Source of the DNA: Rudaea sp.
Lineage (GTDB): Bacteria > Pseudomonadota > Gammaproteobacteria > Xanthomonadales > Rhodanobacteraceae
Length of the DNA stretch: 64,000 nt
Direction: 5' to 3'
NCBI GenBank assembly: GCA_031291055.1
Contig: JARLJU010000204.1
Location: 1 to 64,000 of the forward strand
Shown here: piece after piece, positions 23,505 to 32,094 of the stretch
Numbering within the stretch: the stretch's first letter is position 1
Layout: the number at the start of each line of letters is the position of its first letter
Made by a program: the position numbers and the translations under genes
The notes under the pieces: model-generated
The model's input: the letters and a program-made list of their open reading frames with translations, nothing else
The model's database searches: none
What the model was told of the DNA's origin: nothing

Positions 23505-23533
23505 AAAGACGCCGCAGCAATGCGGCGTTTTGC
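23505..23533. terminator. Bidirectional intrinsic terminator between exbD2 and pdxJ
   Basis: ACGCCGCA-GCAA-TGCGGCGT is a perfect 8-bp stem with a GNRA-type loop, flanked by AAAAG on the left and TTTTGCTTT on the right, so it can stop transcripts in both directions. A second palindrome, TTTGGCGG-CT-CCGCCAAA, follows at 23534-23551. Confidence 0.85.
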
Positions 23534-23587: not shown

Positions 23588-24334
23588 TTACGCCGCGAGT
23601 ATGCGCAGATACGCCATGACGGTCGGCGCCAGCCCCGCGTACAAGGCTTCGCCGATCAGCGCATGGCCGATGGACACTTCGGCAAGGAACGGGACTGCCG
23701 CGCTCAGCGCAGCCAGATTCGCCTGACTCAGGTCGTGGCCGGCATTGACGCCCAGACCGGCCGCGCGGGCACGCTCGGCGCTGCGCACGCACGCGGCCAG
23801 TTCGCGCTGGTAGTCGCTTTGCGCATATGCGGCGGCGTAGGGACCGGTATAAATTTCCACACGATCTGCGCCGACTTCCGCAGCGCGCTCGATGTCGGGC
23901 GAGTCCGCGTCCATGAACAGACTGACGCGGCAGCCGTGCGCTTTCAACTGCGCGACCAGCGGGCGCAGGCGCGCACCGTCCGCACGCAAATCGAATCCAT
24001 GGTCGGACGTGATCTGCGTGTCGCCATCGGGTACGAGCGTGCACTGTGCCGGCCGCGTGCGTGCGACCAGGTCCAGCAGGCCGGGATACGCTTCACGAGC
24101 CGGCGCGAAAACATTGCCTTCGATGTTGAACTCTGCGCGCCCGGCAACCAGCGCGCCGAGAGCGAGCACGTCATCAGAACGGATGTGACGCTGATCGGGA
24201 CGCGGATGCACGGTGATGCCGCCGGCGCCGGCCGCGATGCAGGTGACGGCGGCGGTGCAGACGTCCGGCTCTTGGCCGCCGCGCGAGTTGCGCAATACGG
24301 CTATCTTGTTGACGTTCACGCTGAGCACGGTCAC
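23588..24334 (-). CDS. pdxJ: Pyridoxine 5'-phosphate synthase PdxJ
   Basis: 248 aa from a GTG start that overlaps the preceding FHA gene's stop (GTGA); the long ORF-track version extends into a shadow. [38 protein letters not shown] and EFNIEGN are PdxJ hallmarks, and [16 protein letters not shown] closes the barrel. It condenses 1-deoxyxylulose 5-phosphate with 3-amino-2-oxopropyl phosphate in vitamin B6 synthesis. In Xanthomonas pdxJ follows exbD2 on the same strand; here it faces it and is the last gene of a different, envelope-related run. Confidence 0.95.
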
Positions 24335-25317
24335 GGCGTGTTCCCGTGCGCCGTCGTCGACGCGTCGTTGGCCAGTGCATCGGTCAATCGGGCCGTACGC
24401 GCGTAGAACGCTTCGGTCGAGTCGGCACGAACCAGACGCGCTCCGGGAGGCGCCAAGGTGAGTGTGAATTGCGGCCGGGGGGAAAACCGCTGCAAGTATA
24501 CAAGTTGCTTTATTTGCATTGCTCCGGCCAGCAGCATGCCGAATGCGACCGCGGCCGCGAACGCGTTGCGCTGGCGTACCCGGCTGGCCAGGCGCAGATG
24601 TCCGTAAAGGATAAGCACGAAGGTTGCACACAACCCGCCAGCCTGCAGCCAGGGCAGCGCACGATCGAGTGCGAAAGCGAAGGCGCCCAGACGCGACATG
24701 GAGTCGAAAGTCGTCGCGAACAGCAGGCCAAGAGAGATGACCGCGAGGTGCCCGGCAAAGTGCAGGCGTTGCACCAGCAGGCGTCCGATCAGCGCCCAGA
24801 TGCCGGCCCAGATCAGTATTGCCACGAGTGGAATCAGTATGGCATTGAGCAATTTGAGCGTACCGAAGGGTTCGTAGCTGTCGAGCAGCGCATCGACGCC
24901 AAATCCGGCCAGGCACGCCAACGGTGCGACCAACGTCAGGGCAAGTCCGCGATGCGGGTGCCGACGTTCGCGCAGGGGCAGCGCTTCGGGCACGGTGACG
25001 TCGAGTGGCCGATAGCGCAATTGCGAAAGGCCAAGCGTGAAGGACTGTTCGCCGTCGAGCGCCAGCTCACTCACTCGCTGTTGCGCGGCGGCGACGCGGA
25101 TGCCGTTGACGCTGTGCAAATCGCGCAGCGCCCAATGTCCAGACGACGCATCAATCGCGGCGTGATGCGGGCTGACATGGACGTCATCCAGAATCAGGTC
25201 GTTGTCACAGGCGCGGCCGATGCGCAATTGCGGGCCATTGACCGCAACACGCTGTTCGACCCTGCCATTGCGGTCGAGCACTTCGAGCACACCGCGCGGC
25301 ATGGTTACGGCTTCCAT
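24331..25317 (-). CDS. FHA-domain membrane protein
   Basis: 328 aa. Residues about 10-105 form a forkhead-associated domain ([37 protein letters not shown]), a phosphothreonine reader with conserved Arg, Ser and Asn positions. About five membrane helices follow (e.g. [22 protein letters not shown]), then a short polar tail. The gene overlaps the protease stop upstream and the pdxJ start downstream. A second possible start (ATG at 25302, preceded by GGAAG) would remove the 13-bp overlap. The role is unknown; the kinase at the left edge of the window is one conceivable partner, which is speculative. Confidence 0.75.
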
Positions 25318-26567
25318 GCGATTGCCTCGGTGAAGCGTCGCGCGAACGCGGCTGCGTTTGCGGCGCTCACGCCGCTGAGCATCAGCGACGATTGCAGCAG
25401 CTCATGATTGTCGCGGAGGCTCAGGCTCAGCTGATAGACATCATAGAGCCCATCGAACTGTCGGTAGCGGCGCTGGCAGTAAATCACTTTCGAAGTCAAA
25501 CCAGCATGTTCGACAAAACCCGAATCGCAGCGGAAATTGCTCATCGTTTCCTCGTTGCCACCAAACGAGGAGGCATCGAAGTTTGCCGCATTCTGCAGCA
25601 GATGGAAAAAGTGAATCGCGCCCAGATCATCAGTCGACCACAAGCGGTGGTTGAACTGGATCGCGCCGGAGTTGAGTTCCTCGGACAGAAAAATGTTCTC
25701 GTCGGTGGAGCAATGATAGGACACGCTGTAGTACAGCCGCCTCGGCTCGCGCTCAGTGCGGCCCCAGCAGTTGACATAGTCGGCGAGCTGGCCGGTAACG
25801 TGGTAGCCGCCCAGCGTGCTATCGGCGAAAGCATTGCCAAGCAGGTTGCCGATGTAACGATCCTGATTGGCCAGCAATTGCTGCGCGACGGTCGCGTCAA
25901 ACGTCGCCGCACTCATCGGCGCGCTGCCGGCATGAGCGAGCAACTGGGCAACATACTTGGCCGGCACGAGAAAACTGACCTGATTGCCCGCCGACGCCAC
26001 GTTCACGCCGACGACGTTGCCCTCGGCATCGAGCGTGGGACCGCCGCTCATGCCGGGATTGATCGAGCCGGTAAAATGGATGCGCTCGTACAGGGACTTC
26101 TTCAGCAGCCCATTGTAGGTACCCTCGACGATGGTCAGGCCAAGATCCAGCGGATTGCCCAGCGAGTACAGCCGCGTGCCCATCGCTGGCGCTTCCTCGC
26201 GCAGGGAAAAATGCGCCGGCGCGAAGTCGTCCGCACGCAACAGGGCCAGATCGTGTACGACATCGATGTCGAGCAGCTCCAGTTTGCCGCTGCCACCATT
26301 CTGGTTGAGGTATTCGGCGCGAAAACGGCCCGGATGATTCACCAGTCCCGACACGACATGGTAGTTGCTGATGATACGTCCACCATCGGCGATGACGAAG
26401 CCCGAGCCCAGTGCGTGCTTGGCGTTGCCGCCCTGGTCGATCAGACGCACCTGGACGATACGGTCCTTCACGGTGGCGAATATGGACTCGGCGTTCTCCG
26501 CGGCGGCGGGCATCACCGACAACGACGAGAGGATGGGCAACAGCCAGCGAATCAACATGAAATGCAT
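25305..26567 (-). CDS. Trypsin-like (S1C) serine protease with unusual C-terminal domain
   Basis: 420 aa from the ATG giving MHFMLIRWLLPILSSLSVMPAAA, a signal peptide; the ORF-track start is a shadow extension. The triad is His70 (ISNYHVVSG), Asp106 (VHDLALL) and Ser174 (NPGMSGGP), as in HtrA-type proteases, but there is no PDZ domain. The remaining 190 residues match nothing I recognise and contain four Cys (VNCWG, SYHCST, NFRCDS, VIYCQR) that could pair in the periplasm. The gene lies between a degenerate beta-lactamase-fold gene and an FHA gene. Confidence 0.8.
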   Translation of the reverse strand: MHFMLIRWLLPILSSLSVMPAAAENAESIFATVKDRIVQVRLIDQGGNAKHALGSGFVIADGGRIISNYHVVSGLVNHPGRFRAEYLNQNGGSGKLELLDIDVVHDLALLRADDFAPAHFSLREEAPAMGTRLYSLGNPLDLGLTIVEGTYNGLLKKSLYERIHFTGSINPGMSGGPTLDAEGNVVGVNVASAGNQVSFLVPAKYVAQLLAHAGSAPMSAATFDATVAQQLLANQDRYIGNLLGNAFADSTLGGYHVTGQLADYVNCWGRTEREPRRLYYSVSYHCSTDENIFLSEELNSGAIQFNHRLWSTDDLGAIHFFHLLQNAANFDASSFGGNEETMSNFRCDSGFVEHAGLTSKVIYCQRRYRQFDGLYDVYQLSLSLRDNHELLQSSLMLSGVSAANAAAFARRFTEAIAWKP

Positions 26568-26607
26568 GCGGTTCCACTTCGGAGCGGCAGTATAGCGAGA
26601 GGTCGCA

Positions 26608-28269
26608 TCACGGCGCGATCCAGTGAACCTGCGGTGCGTCGCGTTCGGTCCCGGCAAAATCGATGCGCACCGACGCGACCCTGTCTTCGGCATCGCGCTT
26701 GAACGACAGCTCGCAGGAATCGTCGTCGCAGGCAAATCGATCTTTCGCGAACGCTTGCAGCGGTATCGCCATCCGCCCCGTTACCTGCAAGGAAAGCACG
26801 CCCCTGTGGATGCCGATACGCGCCAGAGTATCGGCATCCAGACGATAGTCGCCAACAAGGTCGTTCGACGCATTCGCGTCGACCGCGATCCGCACTCGTT
26901 CAACATGGGGCGCGCGGGCGCTCAGGCGTTCGGCGAGGAAATGCATGCCGTCGCGATTCAGCAGCAGGTTCGTCACCCTGCCGGCTTCGCGCTGGAAGGA
27001 AATTCCGAAACCGCTGGCGCCGGCGTCAAAGACATCATCGCCATCTGCGTGCAAGAGTGCCGCTGGCTGGCCGCCAAGCTGCGCACTGAGATTGTCGTCG
27101 CGCCGACGCACGATGATTTCGGTGCCGGAACGTACCTGGTACAGGCCGGGATAGGCGTCCAGTTGTGCGCTCGTCGGCGCTGGCGCGCGCGCTGGCGGGG
27201 GTGGTGGCGGCGAGTCGCCCTGAAGCAGCGCCATGCCGAGCGAGCTCAGGCCCGCATCGGCGTTGGCAAGCAGGACCAATCCCTGCTGGCGATCGGTGCG
27301 AAAGCCTATAAATGTGGAAAATCCGGCTGTACTGCTCGCGCGCCAGACCAGCGGCCACGCCTGCTCTCCCGTACCGACCTCGTGGATGTTCCAGCCCAAA
27401 CCTAATTCCTCCGTACGCGTTCGCGCGCGCGGCTGGCGCGCGAGCAGTAGCGCCGCGCGCAGCGGTGAATCCCCCGGACGCAGATTGAGTTGCAGGAAAT
27501 CGAGCAGATCATCGACCCTGGATCGCATCCCGGCGCTGCCGGCAAGCACGCCAAAGTGCCAGAAGGCCGCGGTCTCGCCGCGCGCATGTCCGCCGAGCAG
27601 GGCGGGGCTGTCGTCAAAACCGCTGTGCTTCATGCCGAGCGGAACAAGGACCTTGTCGTTCAGCAGCTTCGGATAATTTGCCGCATATGCCCGGCCGAGC
27701 AGATAGCCGAGCAATCCTGCGTCGAGCGTCGAGTACGCGTAGTCGGGCGCCGATGCTATGCCGCGATAGTTGGCGAGAAAGGCGCGCAGCGCCGGCTCGG
27801 CATAATCCGCGTAGGGATCCTCCGCGTTCAGCGGCATCAGATTGGGCGGCACCGGCGGCAGGCCGGCGTGGTGTGTCGCCAATGCTTCCAGCGTTATCGC
27901 ACCGGCGGCCGGATCGGCGAAAGCAAAATCCGCGGCCAGCAACTCGCGCAATGGCGTCTGCAGGCGTACTTTGCCTTCGTAGGCGGCCTGCGCCAGCAAC
28001 AACCCGCTGAAGATTTCAGTCACCGCGCCGATTTCAAACACGCTGTCGGCGTTTGCGCTGCCAAAGAACCAGGTGTCTCGATCAGCGCCGTCGATCCAGC
28101 CGACGCCCACCGCCGGGTAGGCACCGGCCTGCACTGCTTGTTCGATGGCCTGCGCGTAACCCTGCGGCAGCGCAGTCTCCGCACGCGCTGCCGCGCTGAG
28201 AAAAAGTACACAAAGAGCGGTTCTGAACGCCGCGAAACAAGCCATCCTCATCGGCGAAGAATAGCGCAT
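26608..28269 (-). CDS. Beta-lactamase/penicillin-binding-fold protein lacking catalytic motifs
   Basis: 553 aa with signal peptide (ACFAAFRTALCVLFLSAAARA). The fold of the serine hydrolase/class C beta-lactamase family is clear (SVFEIGAVTEIFSGLLLAQ, ITLEALATHHAGLP, LGMKHSGFDD). However, the S-x-x-K motif reads AVTE (82-85), the Y-x-N motif reads YST (179-181), and the usual H/K-T-G is RASST. It should therefore be inactive as an acylating hydrolase. A C-terminal domain of about 180 residues follows. I chose the ATG at 28269; 28251 and 28245 are alternatives. A perfect hairpin lies upstream. Confidence 0.8.
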   Translation of the reverse strand: MRYSSPMRMACFAAFRTALCVLFLSAAARAETALPQGYAQAIEQAVQAGAYPAVGVGWIDGADRDTWFFGSANADSVFEIGAVTEIFSGLLLAQAAYEGKVRLQTPLRELLAADFAFADPAAGAITLEALATHHAGLPPVPPNLMPLNAEDPYADYAEPALRAFLANYRGIASAPDYAYSTLDAGLLGYLLGRAYAANYPKLLNDKVLVPLGMKHSGFDDSPALLGGHARGETAAFWHFGVLAGSAGMRSRVDDLLDFLQLNLRPGDSPLRAALLLARQPRARTRTEELGLGWNIHEVGTGEQAWPLVWRASSTAGFSTFIGFRTDRQQGLVLLANADAGLSSLGMALLQGDSPPPPPPARAPAPTSAQLDAYPGLYQVRSGTEIIVRRRDDNLSAQLGGQPAALLHADGDDVFDAGASGFGISFQREAGRVTNLLLNRDGMHFLAERLSARAPHVERVRIAVDANASNDLVGDYRLDADTLARIGIHRGVLSLQVTGRMAIPLQAFAKDRFACDDDSCELSFKRDAEDRVASVRIDFAGTERDAPQVHWIAP

Positions 28270-28301
28270 CGCAGTTCCGGGACGCCAAGAGGGACCGGGG
28301 T

Positions 28302-28319
28302 CGCCACATCCGTGTGGCG
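28302..28319 (-). repeat. Hairpin in the PDZ to pseudo-beta-lactamase gap
   Basis: CGCCACA and TGTGGCG form a 7-bp perfect stem with a 4-nt loop in the 104-bp gap. No T-run follows in the transcript direction, so an mRNA-stability or partial-attenuation role is more likely than full termination. Confidence 0.4.
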
Positions 28320-28373
28320 GCAACATCCTGTGGGGAGTGTGCCGGATTTGACGCGGGGGCCGAGCAAAAGTTC

Positions 28374-29336
28374 CTAGGGACAGGCCTCCGGACTCTCGCG
28401 CCATACCACCGGATCCCAGTAACCGCCATGCGCCAGGTCGCCTGCCTTGTCCAGGTGAAGTTGTGCCGCCACCATGGCTGTCGTACCGGCTTTGACGTCG
28501 ACGATGAGCTCTTTGCTCGTATTGCGGCGCAGGCTTGCGATCTCGCTGAAGCCCATCTGCCGGGTGGGAATGTTTTCCGCAACGAGCAGCCGATGTTCGC
28601 CGGCGGCGACGCGATAGACTTCGCCGCCGCTTGGGCCGGGAGTCACTCCATCGAGCAACAGGATGCGTGCATGATATTGGTGATCGCTGCGCGAAGCGAC
28701 GTCGAACGTGCTGATCCGGCCGCAACCGCCGCCCGCCGCGAGCGTCGGGGCGGTTTTCGCAGTATCGGTGGCGGCCATCGCAGCCACGCCCAGTTCCATG
28801 CGCAGGGCCGGCAGATACACGATTTGCAGCGGCGCACTCAATTCCAGTGTCTGGCTGCCGCGCACCACCTGCAGGCGCAGAGGCGACGCATCCACCAGGT
28901 TGTCGACGCTGGACTTCAACGTTGCCGCGGCAAGTGCGCGACCATCGGCATCGGCACCCAGATCGCGCAGCGAAATATTGTTGACCGCGACGATCACGTC
29001 ACCCGGCTGCAGACCCAGGCGTTCGGCGGTGCTGCCCGGCGTTGCTCCGAGTACACGCAGGCCGTCGCGCGCGCGCTCGGCACTGGTGGAGTCGACCAGG
29101 ATGCCCAGATTGGCAACCCTGCGGGCCGGCTCATTCAGACGCATATCCAGTTGATCCGGATGCTGGCCAAGCGCACCCGAAGCGGCCAGGCGCGACAACA
29201 TCAATTGCACGTCCTGACGCAGGCGTTGTTCGGTTTCGGCGCTGGCTACCGTGCCTGAAGGCTGCGGATCCGCGGCACGGACGCTTGCCGCCGTGATCGT
29301 GAGCAGACAGAACAAAGGAATGATTCGTGATGACAT
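28374..29336 (-). CDS. Periplasmic PDZ-domain protein
   Basis: 320 aa with signal peptide (IIPLFCLLTITAASVRA). A PDZ domain occupies about residues 70-175 (GLRVLGATPGSTAERLGLQPGDVIVAVNN). The rest is a beta-rich domain (YHARILLLDGVTPGPSGGEVYRVAAGEHRLLVAEN) of a kind often seen in PEGA-like modules; that comparison is tentative. No protease domain is present. It starts 10 bp after the anti-sigma-like gene and is probably co-transcribed with the sigma factor. It may bind C-termini of envelope proteins and feed the sigma/anti-sigma switch. Confidence 0.75.
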   Translation of the reverse strand: MSSRIIPLFCLLTITAASVRAADPQPSGTVASAETEQRLRQDVQLMLSRLAASGALGQHPDQLDMRLNEPARRVANLGILVDSTSAERARDGLRVLGATPGSTAERLGLQPGDVIVAVNNISLRDLGADADGRALAAATLKSSVDNLVDASPLRLQVVRGSQTLELSAPLQIVYLPALRMELGVAAMAATDTAKTAPTLAAGGGCGRISTFDVASRSDHQYHARILLLDGVTPGPSGGEVYRVAAGEHRLLVAENIPTRQMGFSEIASLRRNTSKELIVDVKAGTTAMVAAQLHLDKAGDLAHGGYWDPVVWRESPEACP

Positions 29337-29346
29337 GGCTTACCCC

Positions 29347-29802
29347 TCAGATGCGCGTGACGGCGAGGCTCTGGCGGCGCGCGGCCAGCAGGGCGCTCAG
29401 CAATTCGCTGCGCTGTTTCCACAATGGAACAAGTTCATTTTTCTTGGCACCGTGATCGTAGGCGGCCTGCAGGGCGCCATCGACCCGCACCAGTTCGGCC
29501 TCGGCGTCGAGCGCAAGCGGATTGCTTCCGCCGTTCGCGGACGTTGCTCCGGCATGCAGCTGGATTTCCAGAGCCTGCGCGCGCGCCTGCCAGTCGGTGG
29601 CACCGCTGCCTTGCAACCGTACCGCAAAAAGCACGACGGTCAGTCCCGCCAGTACGGCAAAGCCGGCACCGGCGATCCGCCGGCGCCGGCGTCGTTGTCG
29701 GCGCACCTGATGCGCCTGCGCGATCCGCGGCCAAAGATCGGCGGACGGCTCAGCCAGCAGCCGCTGCGCGACTTCGTCCAAATTCAATTCTCGTGTGGAC
29801 AT
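29347..29802 (-). CDS. Small single-pass membrane protein, probable anti-sigma factor
   Basis: 151 aa from the ATG inside the sigma gene's last codons (19-bp overlap). A cytoplasmic N-terminus of about 45 residues (STRELNLDEVAQRLLAEPSADLWPRIAQAH), a very basic stretch (RRQRRRRRR), one membrane helix (IAGAGFAVLAGLTVVLFAVRL) and a periplasmic helical tail are visible. No zinc HxxxCxxC motif is present. Overlap with an ECF sigma gene and the topology are the basis for the anti-sigma call; sequence similarity to a named family is not evident. Confidence 0.65.
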   Translation of the reverse strand: MSTRELNLDEVAQRLLAEPSADLWPRIAQAHQVRRQRRRRRRIAGAGFAVLAGLTVVLFAVRLQGSGATDWQARAQALEIQLHAGATSANGGSNPLALDAEAELVRVDGALQAAYDHGAKKNELVPLWKQRSELLSALLAARRQSLAVTRI

Positions 29803-30419
29803 GTCAAAACCTGTTTTAGTGAAGACGCTGCAACCAGGGCATTCAGACGCCCGATTGCACGCGCCAGGATTGATTTGGAATAACTTTCGCTCTGACCGAA
29901 CAGCGCGGCCAGTTCGCTGTGCGTGTAGCCTTCGAATTCGTGCAGCACCAGTACGGCACGTGCACGTGGCGGCAGGCGTCCCAGCAGCGACCATGCATCG
30001 ACCATATTAGCCGCCTCTGGGCCGTCGCTGGTCAGATGCGCGAACAGGGCTTCTGGATCGTCTTCGACGCCATGCCGCTGGCGGCGCAGCTGATCGATGC
30101 AGGCATTCGCCGCCAGTCGCTTCAGCCACGCTCCGAACGGCGCGTCACCGCGGTAGCTGCCGACGGTATCCATCATTTTGAGGAAAACCTCCTGCACCAG
30201 ATCTTCCGCCTGCTGACGATCTCCGAGCATGCGCAGAGCCAGATTGAAGCAAGGCCGGCCGAAGCACTGGTAAAGAGTCGCGAACGCCTGCATGTCGCCG
30301 CGCTGCGCACGAGCCAAGGTCATCGCCTCGACGTTCTGCGCAAACCCGACACCCCGATCGCTGGCAGCCGGCTCTTGCGCAGCGCGATCCTGTGAGGCCC
30401 GGTTTTGTACGGCATGCAT
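29784..30419 (-). CDS. ECF-type RNA polymerase sigma factor
   Basis: 211 aa using the ATG that gives MHAVQNRASQ; the longer track ORF is unlikely. Region 2 (FATLYQCFGRPCFNLALRMLGDRQQAEDLVQEVFLKMM) and region 4 (LPPRARAVLVLHEFEGYTHSELAALFGQSESYSKSILARA) are intact. It should direct polymerase to a small set of promoters and be held by the product of the overlapping next gene. It stands fourth from the downstream end of no obvious repeat; functionally it heads the PDZ, pseudo-beta-lactamase, protease and FHA genes. The start is weakly supported by its ribosome-binding site. Confidence 0.85.
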   Translation of the reverse strand: MHAVQNRASQDRAAQEPAASDRGVGFAQNVEAMTLARAQRGDMQAFATLYQCFGRPCFNLALRMLGDRQQAEDLVQEVFLKMMDTVGSYRGDAPFGAWLKRLAANACIDQLRRQRHGVEDDPEALFAHLTSDGPEAANMVDAWSLLGRLPPRARAVLVLHEFEGYTHSELAALFGQSESYSKSILARAIGRLNALVAASSLKQVLTCPHEN

Positions 30420-30456
30420 TGGAATAAGGACGTTTGCGCGGCGTCCGCCGTCGCAA

Positions 30457-32094
30457 TCACCCTGACGGCAAATACCGGCGCAGGAGCTGAACCTGCTGAA
30501 TGCGCATTTTCGGCACCACGAATTGCGCATCGCCACCACCGCCATTGACGCGCAGTTCGACCCCCGTGTCATCGGCGCCGATCACGTAACCTTCGACCTT
30601 CTTGCCGCCTTCGGTGATCAGCCGCACCCGGCGACCCTGCGCGTCCTTGAGCCGCGCGTATTCGATGACGTCGTAGTCGTGGTACTCGGGCGGGGGTGCG
30701 CCCAGGCGTTCGATCGTAGGCTTCCACACCAGGGCCATGGTCGAGCCCGGGGGCGGTGGCGGTGTACTTGGCAGAAAATCCGGCGTGCTGCGCGGCGACA
30801 CCGGCCTGGGCGGCTGCGGCAACCTGGCTTCCGCGCGATCCAGCTCGTCAAGCCCCATATTCGGCCCCGGCGGACGACCCGGCGGACTCGCCGCGGGCGG
30901 AGTCGCCGCCACGGGTTTCGCCGCTGCGGTGATGCTTTCGGCAGGCACGTGCGCGATGGCGGCGGCTGCTGTGCCGGACGGCGGTATTGTCGCAGTGACG
31001 GGGGGCATGGATGGCGAAGGTGGCACAGGCACCGGGATCGACGCGGTACCGGACAGGTTGCCGGTCACCGCCGCGATCGGCGTCGACGGTGGTGTATCCG
31101 CGACCGTCTCGGCCTGCGCAGGCGCAGCGAAACTCAGCCGGAACATTACCGGTGGCGTGTCTTGATAACGGGCGGTGACGTTGAGCTGGCGCAACAGATC
31201 TTCCGGTGCGAGGGTCAAACCCGTGCCAGCCACGAAACTGCTGTTGGGCAGGCTGAGGATGCTCGCCTGGCCGCCGGATTCAACCAGATGGCGATACAGC
31301 TTCATCAGCTCGTTGCTGGCCTGGATGCCGTGCTGCTGCAGCAGCGCCTGCACTGCGGCGACATGCTGCTCGGCGAATTGTCCCGGCCCGATGCTCGCCC
31401 GCTGCCCGCAGAACCGGTTGCGGCGCTCCAGGTAACCCAGGTCGGAATAGTCCATCGAGAGCTGGTCGACGTGCAGCTTGTCCAGCGCCATCGGACCTTT
31501 CGGATCGAACGGGTGCACTTCGGCTTCCAGGGCCAGTTTGGCGAATCCGGGCGACGCCAGGGTCAAGGTCAGATCCAGCGTCTTGCTGTCCATGTCGTAA
31601 CGATAGTCGACACGTTGTCGCGTATCGCCGACGCTCACACCCATCTTGCTGTAATCGGCAGGAGCAAACGCGCTGACGCCACAACCCAGTGTTTCAAACG
31701 GCACCAGGGTCGAGGGGTTGAGCCATTGGCTGTCAAGCCATGGCATGGAGGGCAGCTTCAGGCCGCTTACCGAGACCCCGAACCGCGGCGGCAGGAGACT
31801 TTCGCTGAACAGCGCGTGCTTGAGCAGCCAGAACACCCCCGGGGTCTCCACGGCGACACTGTCCGCATGAAACACATCCTGGGTCTTGTCGCGCTTGACG
31901 GCGACATTGACGCCGCTCAGGTTCACGCTGCCGTCGAGTCCGGCCGAGATGCTGTCGTAATGCACCTGCGCGTATGGCGCCAGCGCAGCCGTGATCCGCT
32001 GTGCGTCCTGCCCTACTTCGTACCAGGCCAGTAGCTTCAGCACACCCGCAAGCAGAATGCCCGCGAGGGCAAGATTACGCAGCAGTTTCCACAT
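30457..32094 (-). CDS. Membrane-anchored periplasmic protein of unknown function, Pro-rich linker
   Basis: 545 aa from the ATG giving MWKLLRNLALAGILLAGVLKLLAW, an uncleaved anchor or signal. Residues about 30-320 form a beta-rich domain reminiscent of proteins that line lipid-transport or AsmA-like assemblies (SISAGLDGSVNLSGVNVAV), though I cannot name the family. A Pro/Ala-rich linker of about 130 residues follows. The C-terminal 60 residues look like a small SH3-like barrel (RVRLITEGGKKVEGYVIGADDTGVELRV). It starts 91 bp after the phosphopantetheinyl transferase gene and ends 37 bp before the sigma factor. Confidence 0.6.
   Translation of the reverse strand: MWKLLRNLALAGILLAGVLKLLAWYEVGQDAQRITAALAPYAQVHYDSISAGLDGSVNLSGVNVAVKRDKTQDVFHADSVAVETPGVFWLLKHALFSESLLPPRFGVSVSGLKLPSMPWLDSQWLNPSTLVPFETLGCGVSAFAPADYSKMGVSVGDTRQRVDYRYDMDSKTLDLTLTLASPGFAKLALEAEVHPFDPKGPMALDKLHVDQLSMDYSDLGYLERRNRFCGQRASIGPGQFAEQHVAAVQALLQQHGIQASNELMKLYRHLVESGGQASILSLPNSSFVAGTGLTLAPEDLLRQLNVTARYQDTPPVMFRLSFAAPAQAETVADTPPSTPIAAVTGNLSGTASIPVPVPPSPSMPPVTATIPPSGTAAAAIAHVPAESITAAAKPVAATPPAASPPGRPPGPNMGLDELDRAEARLPQPPRPVSPRSTPDFLPSTPPPPPGSTMALVWKPTIERLGAPPPEYHDYDVIEYARLKDAQGRRVRLITEGGKKVEGYVIGADDTGVELRVNGGGGDAQFVVPKMRIQQVQLLRRYLPSG

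Follow-up and report, generated by a model that had tools for sequence, protein, structure and literature searches.

The 64,000-nucleotide (nt) window analysed here, positions 1 to 64,000 of the forward strand of contig JARLJU010000204.1 from Rudaea sp. (assembly GCA_031291055.1), carries a run of eight genes near dnaA, within which we identified a conserved unit of an extracytoplasmic function (ECF) sigma factor, a single-pass anti-sigma factor and a secreted PDZ protein. All eight open frames are encoded by the minus strand (32094 to 23588), in the close spacing that a first-pass annotation of the same sequence had reported. In the order of reading, they encode an anchored protein (anch), the sigma factor, the anti-sigma factor, the PDZ protein, a catalytically dead beta-lactamase-fold protein, a secreted trypsin-like protease, a membrane protein with an FHA domain, and PdxJ. 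The gaps are 37 nt between the anch and sigma genes, 10 nt between the anti-sigma and PDZ genes, 122 nt between the PDZ and beta-lactamase-fold genes, and 40 nt before the protease gene, and the remaining frames overlap by 19 nt (sigma/anti-sigma), 13 nt (protease/FHA) and 4 nt (FHA/pdxJ). On the coding strand, no convincing intrinsic terminator was seen from one gene of the run to the next; a terminator-like hairpin with a T run lies after pdxJ (23509–23528, minus strand). The domain assignments of the first-pass annotation all hold in Pfam: Sigma70_r2 (PF04542, 1.7e-18) and r4_2 (PF08281, 6e-11) for the sigma factor, PDZ_6 (5e-9), Beta-lactamase (PF00144, 4.8e-36) with DUF3471, Trypsin_2 (2e-22), FHA (2.3e-10) and PdxJ (1.2e-81). 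Neither anch nor the anti-sigma factor matched any Pfam or NCBIfam family above cut-off.

The run is part of the dnaA region, where yidC, mnmE, dnaA (13154), dnaN and gyrB (16993) are followed by tonB-exbB-exbD-exbD, which converge on pdxJ from its downstream side. A PPTase gene stands directly upstream of the neighbourhood of the run in most relatives, and the conserved surroundings are therefore wider than had been described. The annotation had proposed that the eight genes form one envelope system, a periplasmic sensing and proteolysis relay. The finding presented below is real, conserved and testable, yet smaller than first claimed: a three-gene switch with neighbours stacked beside it.

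The sigma, anti-sigma and PDZ triad

The PDZ protein was searched in 300 genomes of the order, with wide regions around the matches examined, and its alignment was scanned against about 85,000 species genomes, which returned 58 loci; about 65 homologous loci were compared. The sigma, anti-sigma and PDZ genes keep a fixed order in every locus that retains the triad, with or without pdxJ. The triad occurs across Xanthomonadales and also in Pseudidiomarina, Aliikangiella and Glaciecola, and in Rhodanobacteraceae it mostly stands between the PPTase gene and pdxJ. Since Pseudidiomarina, Aliikangiella, Glaciecola and Luteimonas have the triad without pdxJ, this gene adjoins the unit without belonging to it; conversely, pdxJ is retained where the sigma and anti-sigma genes are gone (loci L089, L025 and L026). 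The beta-lactamase-fold gene was found only in the Rudaea and Tahibacter groups, and anch in these groups and part of Dokdonella. The conserved core, as judged from this comparison, is the three-gene unit, with the other genes stacked beside it. The expected co-occurrence of all eight genes in relatives thus held for the triad in its fixed order, whereas anch and the beta-lactamase-fold gene are confined to some genera. A search of the open literature, with subscription papers and supplements outside its reach, found no account of the triad, in line with the annotation's view that no system of this composition had been described, although the sigma factor may already be numbered as a group in the published ECF classification.

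The sigma factor (29784–30419, minus strand, 211 residues) has Sigma70 regions 2 and 4 only and scores above the cut-off of the sigma70-ECF superfamily (TIGR02937). It is not the RpoE of this genome: it reaches 52.7 bits against the RpoE equivalog model, below the cut-off of 236, while another gene scores 326, so that a canonical RpoE is present separately. A bipartite motif, TGCGACG-N16-CGTC, lies upstream of the sigma gene as a predicted ECF promoter (30429–30455, minus strand), directly 3' of the anch stop codon. The motif was found at 35 of 52 loci, compared with 0.44% of Markov controls (46/10400), and its conservation before the sigma factor's own gene suggests autoregulation. The start codon follows CGTC after 9–13 nt in nearly all loci (9 nt to an ATG in the window) and no ribosome-binding site is visible, for which reason a leaderless sigma mRNA is predicted. 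Searches for sigma-70 promoters gave one weak match, at chance level.

Pattern searches were also run genome-wide. TGCGACG-N16-CGTC occurs at 13 sites in the genome itself, compared with 23 for the reversed pattern, and a stricter version occurs at 0–5 sites per relative without any recurring second target. One copy of TGCGACG-N16-CGTCTT (G000:C57:29580-29606, L174) lies 29 nt before a lipoprotein gene (MRQTFAITALATFALGGCATVPAP...), which is a possible second target of the sigma factor, although it was not seen to recur in relatives. We do not propose a wider regulon, because the lipoprotein genes at this site and in genome G053 are single cases.

The same genome has a second sigma/anti-sigma/PDZ set (G000:C71, L051:5320-7902), in which the sigma factor is 40% identical, the PDZ protein is longer, and the anti-sigma factor ends in NEIN without a hydrophobic tail. 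Given the distance of its sigma factor, its different PDZ protein and this ending, we set it aside as a more distant sister system.

The anti-sigma tail and the PDZ protein

The anti-sigma factor (29347–29802, minus strand, 151 residues) consists of an Arg-rich N-terminus of about 44 residues, one hydrophobic stretch, and a C-terminal part with a conserved LQxAYDxGA...LW motif. With a short N-terminus and a single hydrophobic stretch, it should place its C-terminus in the periplasm, where the PDZ protein is also expected. The HxxxCxxC motif of zinc-type (class I) anti-sigma factors is absent from the window protein and from those of Xanthomonadales. CnrY is a short, class II-type anti-sigma factor, and the protein described here likewise has a short cytoplasmic N-terminus before a single span, a likeness of architecture alone. 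Short, divergent class II anti-sigma factors have been mentioned in the literature (PMC7406223). Two distant orthologues (L091:6378-6983 and L096:6180-6773) differ in having a longer N-terminus with HxxxCxxC, recognized by eye, and this domain gave no Pfam match above cut-off. Their presence suggests that the short Xanthomonadales form is a reduced one that has lost a zinc-type domain.

The window protein ends in T-R-I (codons at 29350–29358, minus strand). Class I PDZ ligands follow the pattern S/T-x-hydrophobic-COOH. In a set of 42 distinct close relatives, which includes the window, the last residue is Ile in 37 and Leu in 5; Arg stands at position -1 in 37, with Gln or Ser in the others, and Thr at position -2 in 33. 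By comparison, Ile or Leu is C-terminal in 8.5% of 565 background frames. More distant tail-bearing anti-sigma factors end in VIRI, IVKI, IIRL, VISL or ILSL. All tail-bearing sequences are related, as would be expected if this were an ordinary ECF locus with a roleless tail kept by common descent, but we consider this explanation highly improbable: the last residue and positions -1 and -2 carry 3.8, 3.7 and 3.1 bits, against 1.3–1.9 bits at positions -3 to -12, and these three residues stay far more conserved than the preceding linker, whatever length it takes among relatives. Moreover, all four codons for Thr, all four CGN codons for Arg and three codons for Ile occur in the tail, and this synonymous variation indicates that selection acts on the protein.

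The gene that follows encodes the PDZ protein (28374–29336, minus strand, 320 residues), which has a signal peptide, a helix, an HtrA-type PDZ domain (residues ~66–176) and a C-terminal domain (~203–320) with two invariant cysteines, C205 and C319. The PDZ domain matches DegP PDZ1 by profile (8e-13) and the peptide-bound HtrA3 PDZ by fold (TMt 0.74; model pLDDT 84.5), and its carboxylate loop is intact. All 50 structural matches listed fall on the PDZ part, and no PDB relative of the C-terminal domain is evident among them. In 43 tail-bearing pairs the loop has the form x-[LVI]-G, and it is changed to WG, FG or LD in 8 of 9 pairs in which the anti-sigma factor lacks a hydrophobic end; the exceptions in tail or loop are L055, L092, L094 and L097. 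Domains similar to the C-terminal domain are also found as small proteins in Marinobacter, Ferrimonas and Shewanella (loci L105 and L107-L109), and the solo proteins of L105 and L109 match no Pfam family.

A proposed latch and its relation to known systems

We infer from these features a latch in which the PDZ protein grips the anti-sigma tail and gates its proteolysis, and we assign a probability of about 0.5 to this model as a whole. The sigma factor would be held at the membrane by the anti-sigma factor, whose periplasmic C-terminus would present T-R-I-COOH to the secreted PDZ protein, and this binding would shield the anti-sigma factor from site-1 cleavage. The latch might open when the C-terminal domain with its two invariant cysteines senses a change, or alternatively when misplaced proteins bring exposed C-termini into competition for the PDZ groove. 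The anti-sigma factor would then be cut at site 1 and subsequently, probably, by RseP, which is present in the genome. The freed sigma factor would transcribe its own operon from TGCGACG-N16-CGTC into a leaderless mRNA, and in this genome read-through could raise the expression of the downstream beta-lactamase-fold, protease-FHA and pdxJ genes. The trypsin-like protease of the run is an unlikely candidate for the first cut, because nearly all relatives lack it. Somewhat more tentatively, we propose that such proteins represent a class of anti-sigma factors governed by their own C-terminal PDZ ligand, with a dedicated PDZ protein as the latch and release by competing C-termini or by a change in the two-Cys domain.

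Several observations weigh against this model. The genome-wide motif counts disclose no regulon beyond the locus, and the short N-terminus of the anti-sigma factor matches no known anti-sigma domain in Pfam or NCBIfam. Tail loss accompanied by a changed loop has arisen independently no more than two or three times; L097 lacks the tail and keeps an LG loop, L055 has the tail with an FG loop, and two Pseudidiomarina reach an F or I end via a different tail. In some genomes without the sigma and anti-sigma genes (L089:7001-7339, L025 and L026), a lone C-terminal domain of the PDZ protein persists beside pdxJ, which suggests a role independent of the anti-sigma factor. A further objection is that the tail might serve as a cleavage signal for a different PDZ, that of a DegS/DegQ-type protease, RseP or a C-terminal processing protease, with the neighbouring PDZ protein binding something else. 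A hydrophobic C-terminal tail is a usual mark for PDZ-bearing envelope proteases, and other such proteases, besides RseP, match PDZ queries in this genome. This alternative nevertheless appears doubtful to us, since every tail-bearing locus that was read has a dedicated secreted PDZ protein whose loop state goes with the state of the tail.

The solo domains bear equally on another alternative, in which the PDZ protein is a chaperone-like output raised by the sigma factor and any contact with the anti-sigma tail is feedback. Second copies of the C-terminal domain after the PDZ gene (L086, L088 and L090) and the failure to find another recurring sigma target are in keeping with it, but a pure output would leave the strict T-R-I tail of the anti-sigma factor unexplained, and we regard this alternative, too, as unlikely.

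In well-studied cases of this kind, control of the anti-sigma factor lies with proteases and with shields that read lipids or misfolded proteins. In E. coli, DegS reads the tails of outer membrane proteins (OMPs) and RseB shields RseA. In P. aeruginosa, the AlgW PDZ reads OMP or MucE tails and MucB shields MucA (PMC8545111). The latch model shares with RpoE-RseA-RseB plus DegS/RseP and with AlgU-MucA-MucB plus AlgW the joint encoding of an ECF sigma factor, a single-pass anti-sigma factor and a periplasmic partner, the involvement of a PDZ that reads C-termini, and the presence of RseP. It differs from them in that the triad has no Pfam or NCBIfam match to the RseA, RseB or DegS families, in that the PDZ resides on a non-protease, and in that the proposed ligand is the anti-sigma factor's own tail; the promoter is TGCGACG/CGTC rather than the GGAACTT/TCAAA of RpoE. 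By analogy, the triad most likely works like RseA-RseB/DegS or MucA-MucB/AlgW without being a member of either system. If the latch exists, a single protein would combine shielding with C-terminus sensing, tasks that RseB and DegS perform separately. A PDZ ligand on an anti-sigma factor encoded beside its own PDZ gene would make a simple and directly testable latch in many soil and water bacteria, for which the promoter motif offers a ready reporter, and the division into modules tells which genes experiments may omit.

The genes beside the triad

The protease (25305–26567, minus strand, 420 residues) and the FHA protein (24331–25317, minus strand, 328 residues, an FHA domain followed by membrane helices) form an obligate two-gene module that, as its distribution indicates, is separate from the switch. 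The protease combines an intact triad (H70, D106 and S174) with the Cys-bearing C-terminal domain that the first-pass annotation had recognized (C267, C286, C347 and C364), and each of these residues is kept in every one of 43 sequences or in all except one. Searches with the C-terminal domain recovered relatives from 26 of 300 genomes in the order and from 24 of 369 in the class. An FHA protein gene immediately follows the protease gene on the same strand at 42 of 43 distinct loci (L111-L151 and the window), and the remaining locus ends at a contig edge. The pair stands at unrelated genomic places in Gammaproteobacteria; 20 wider regions contained no third conserved partner, and no other widely recurring feature is shared by the flanks. 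The open-literature search found no description of this pair, which is worth a study of its own. Compared with HtrA/Deg proteins, the trypsin-like domain with its triad and the HtrA-type PDZ are both present in this run, but in separate, unlinked proteins; the protease has the four-Cys domain in place of a PDZ and scores 60 bits, the Do-family cut-off being 416.

The pair was absent from all of about 40 other PDZ-pdxJ intervals that were read, which leaves this genome as the only one in which it was seen at the locus, and it is also absent from two genomes of the same genus and seven further close relatives. In the protease tree the window copy clusters with those of two other families in the order rather than with copies from its own family, and this lineage most likely acquired the pair by capture, between the beta-lactamase-fold gene and pdxJ. 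The assembly is of draft quality, with 5.4% contamination; however, both junctions of the captured pair are unbroken and the FHA and pdxJ frames overlap, which makes an assembly artefact unlikely.

The dead beta-lactamase-fold protein (26608–28251, minus strand, 547 residues) shares PF00144 and DUF3471 with class C beta-lactamases and S12 serine hydrolases, but scores far below the class C cut-offs and, as had been noted, is degenerate. It has GAVTE instead of GSxxK, and SxxK is gone in all orthologues in which the motif was read, with A or D/N/G at the Ser position and E or A at the Lys position. A predicted sigmaE (RpoE)-type promoter, GGAACTT...TCAAA, begins at the PDZ stop codon (28374–28347, minus strand), 5' of this gene. 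Such a promoter was found in 15 of 20 gaps leading to the beta-lactamase-fold gene (10 of 20 with the strict pattern) and in none of 28 other gaps, and the run likely has at least two entry points for transcription. Past this promoter, the leader of the gene (28347–28300) contains a sequence, CACTCCCCACAGG, that looks conserved in L052, L055, L064 and L068.

These results bear on whether the eight genes act as one relay. The single strand, the tight spacing, the lack of a clear internal terminator and the intact protease triad all speak for it. Against it, two promoter signatures divide the run and give the beta-lactamase-fold gene one of its own, pdxJ (23588–24334, minus strand; pyridoxine 5'-phosphate synthase) is a housekeeping gene and a frequent but unrelated neighbour, and the protease-FHA pair is missing from the locus in every other relative read, is absent from the nine close-relative genomes, stands elsewhere at unrelated places and groups by its protease with other families. 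The first-pass annotation had held that its proposal would fall if the genes did not co-occur in related genomes, and the protease and FHA genes do not. We therefore consider a single eight-gene relay very improbable; what stands of the proposed envelope system is the sigma-anti-sigma-PDZ unit with its envelope-facing parts.

The anch gene (30457–32094, minus strand, 545 residues) lies upstream of the sigma promoter and is, like the dead beta-lactamase-fold gene, a lineage addition. Its product has an N-terminal membrane anchor, an alpha/beta periplasmic part, a Pro-rich linker (~327–470) and a C-terminal Sm/SH3-like domain (474–540), and Foldseek matched it to JlpA (8e-7, TMt 0.43) and RimP (6e-4).

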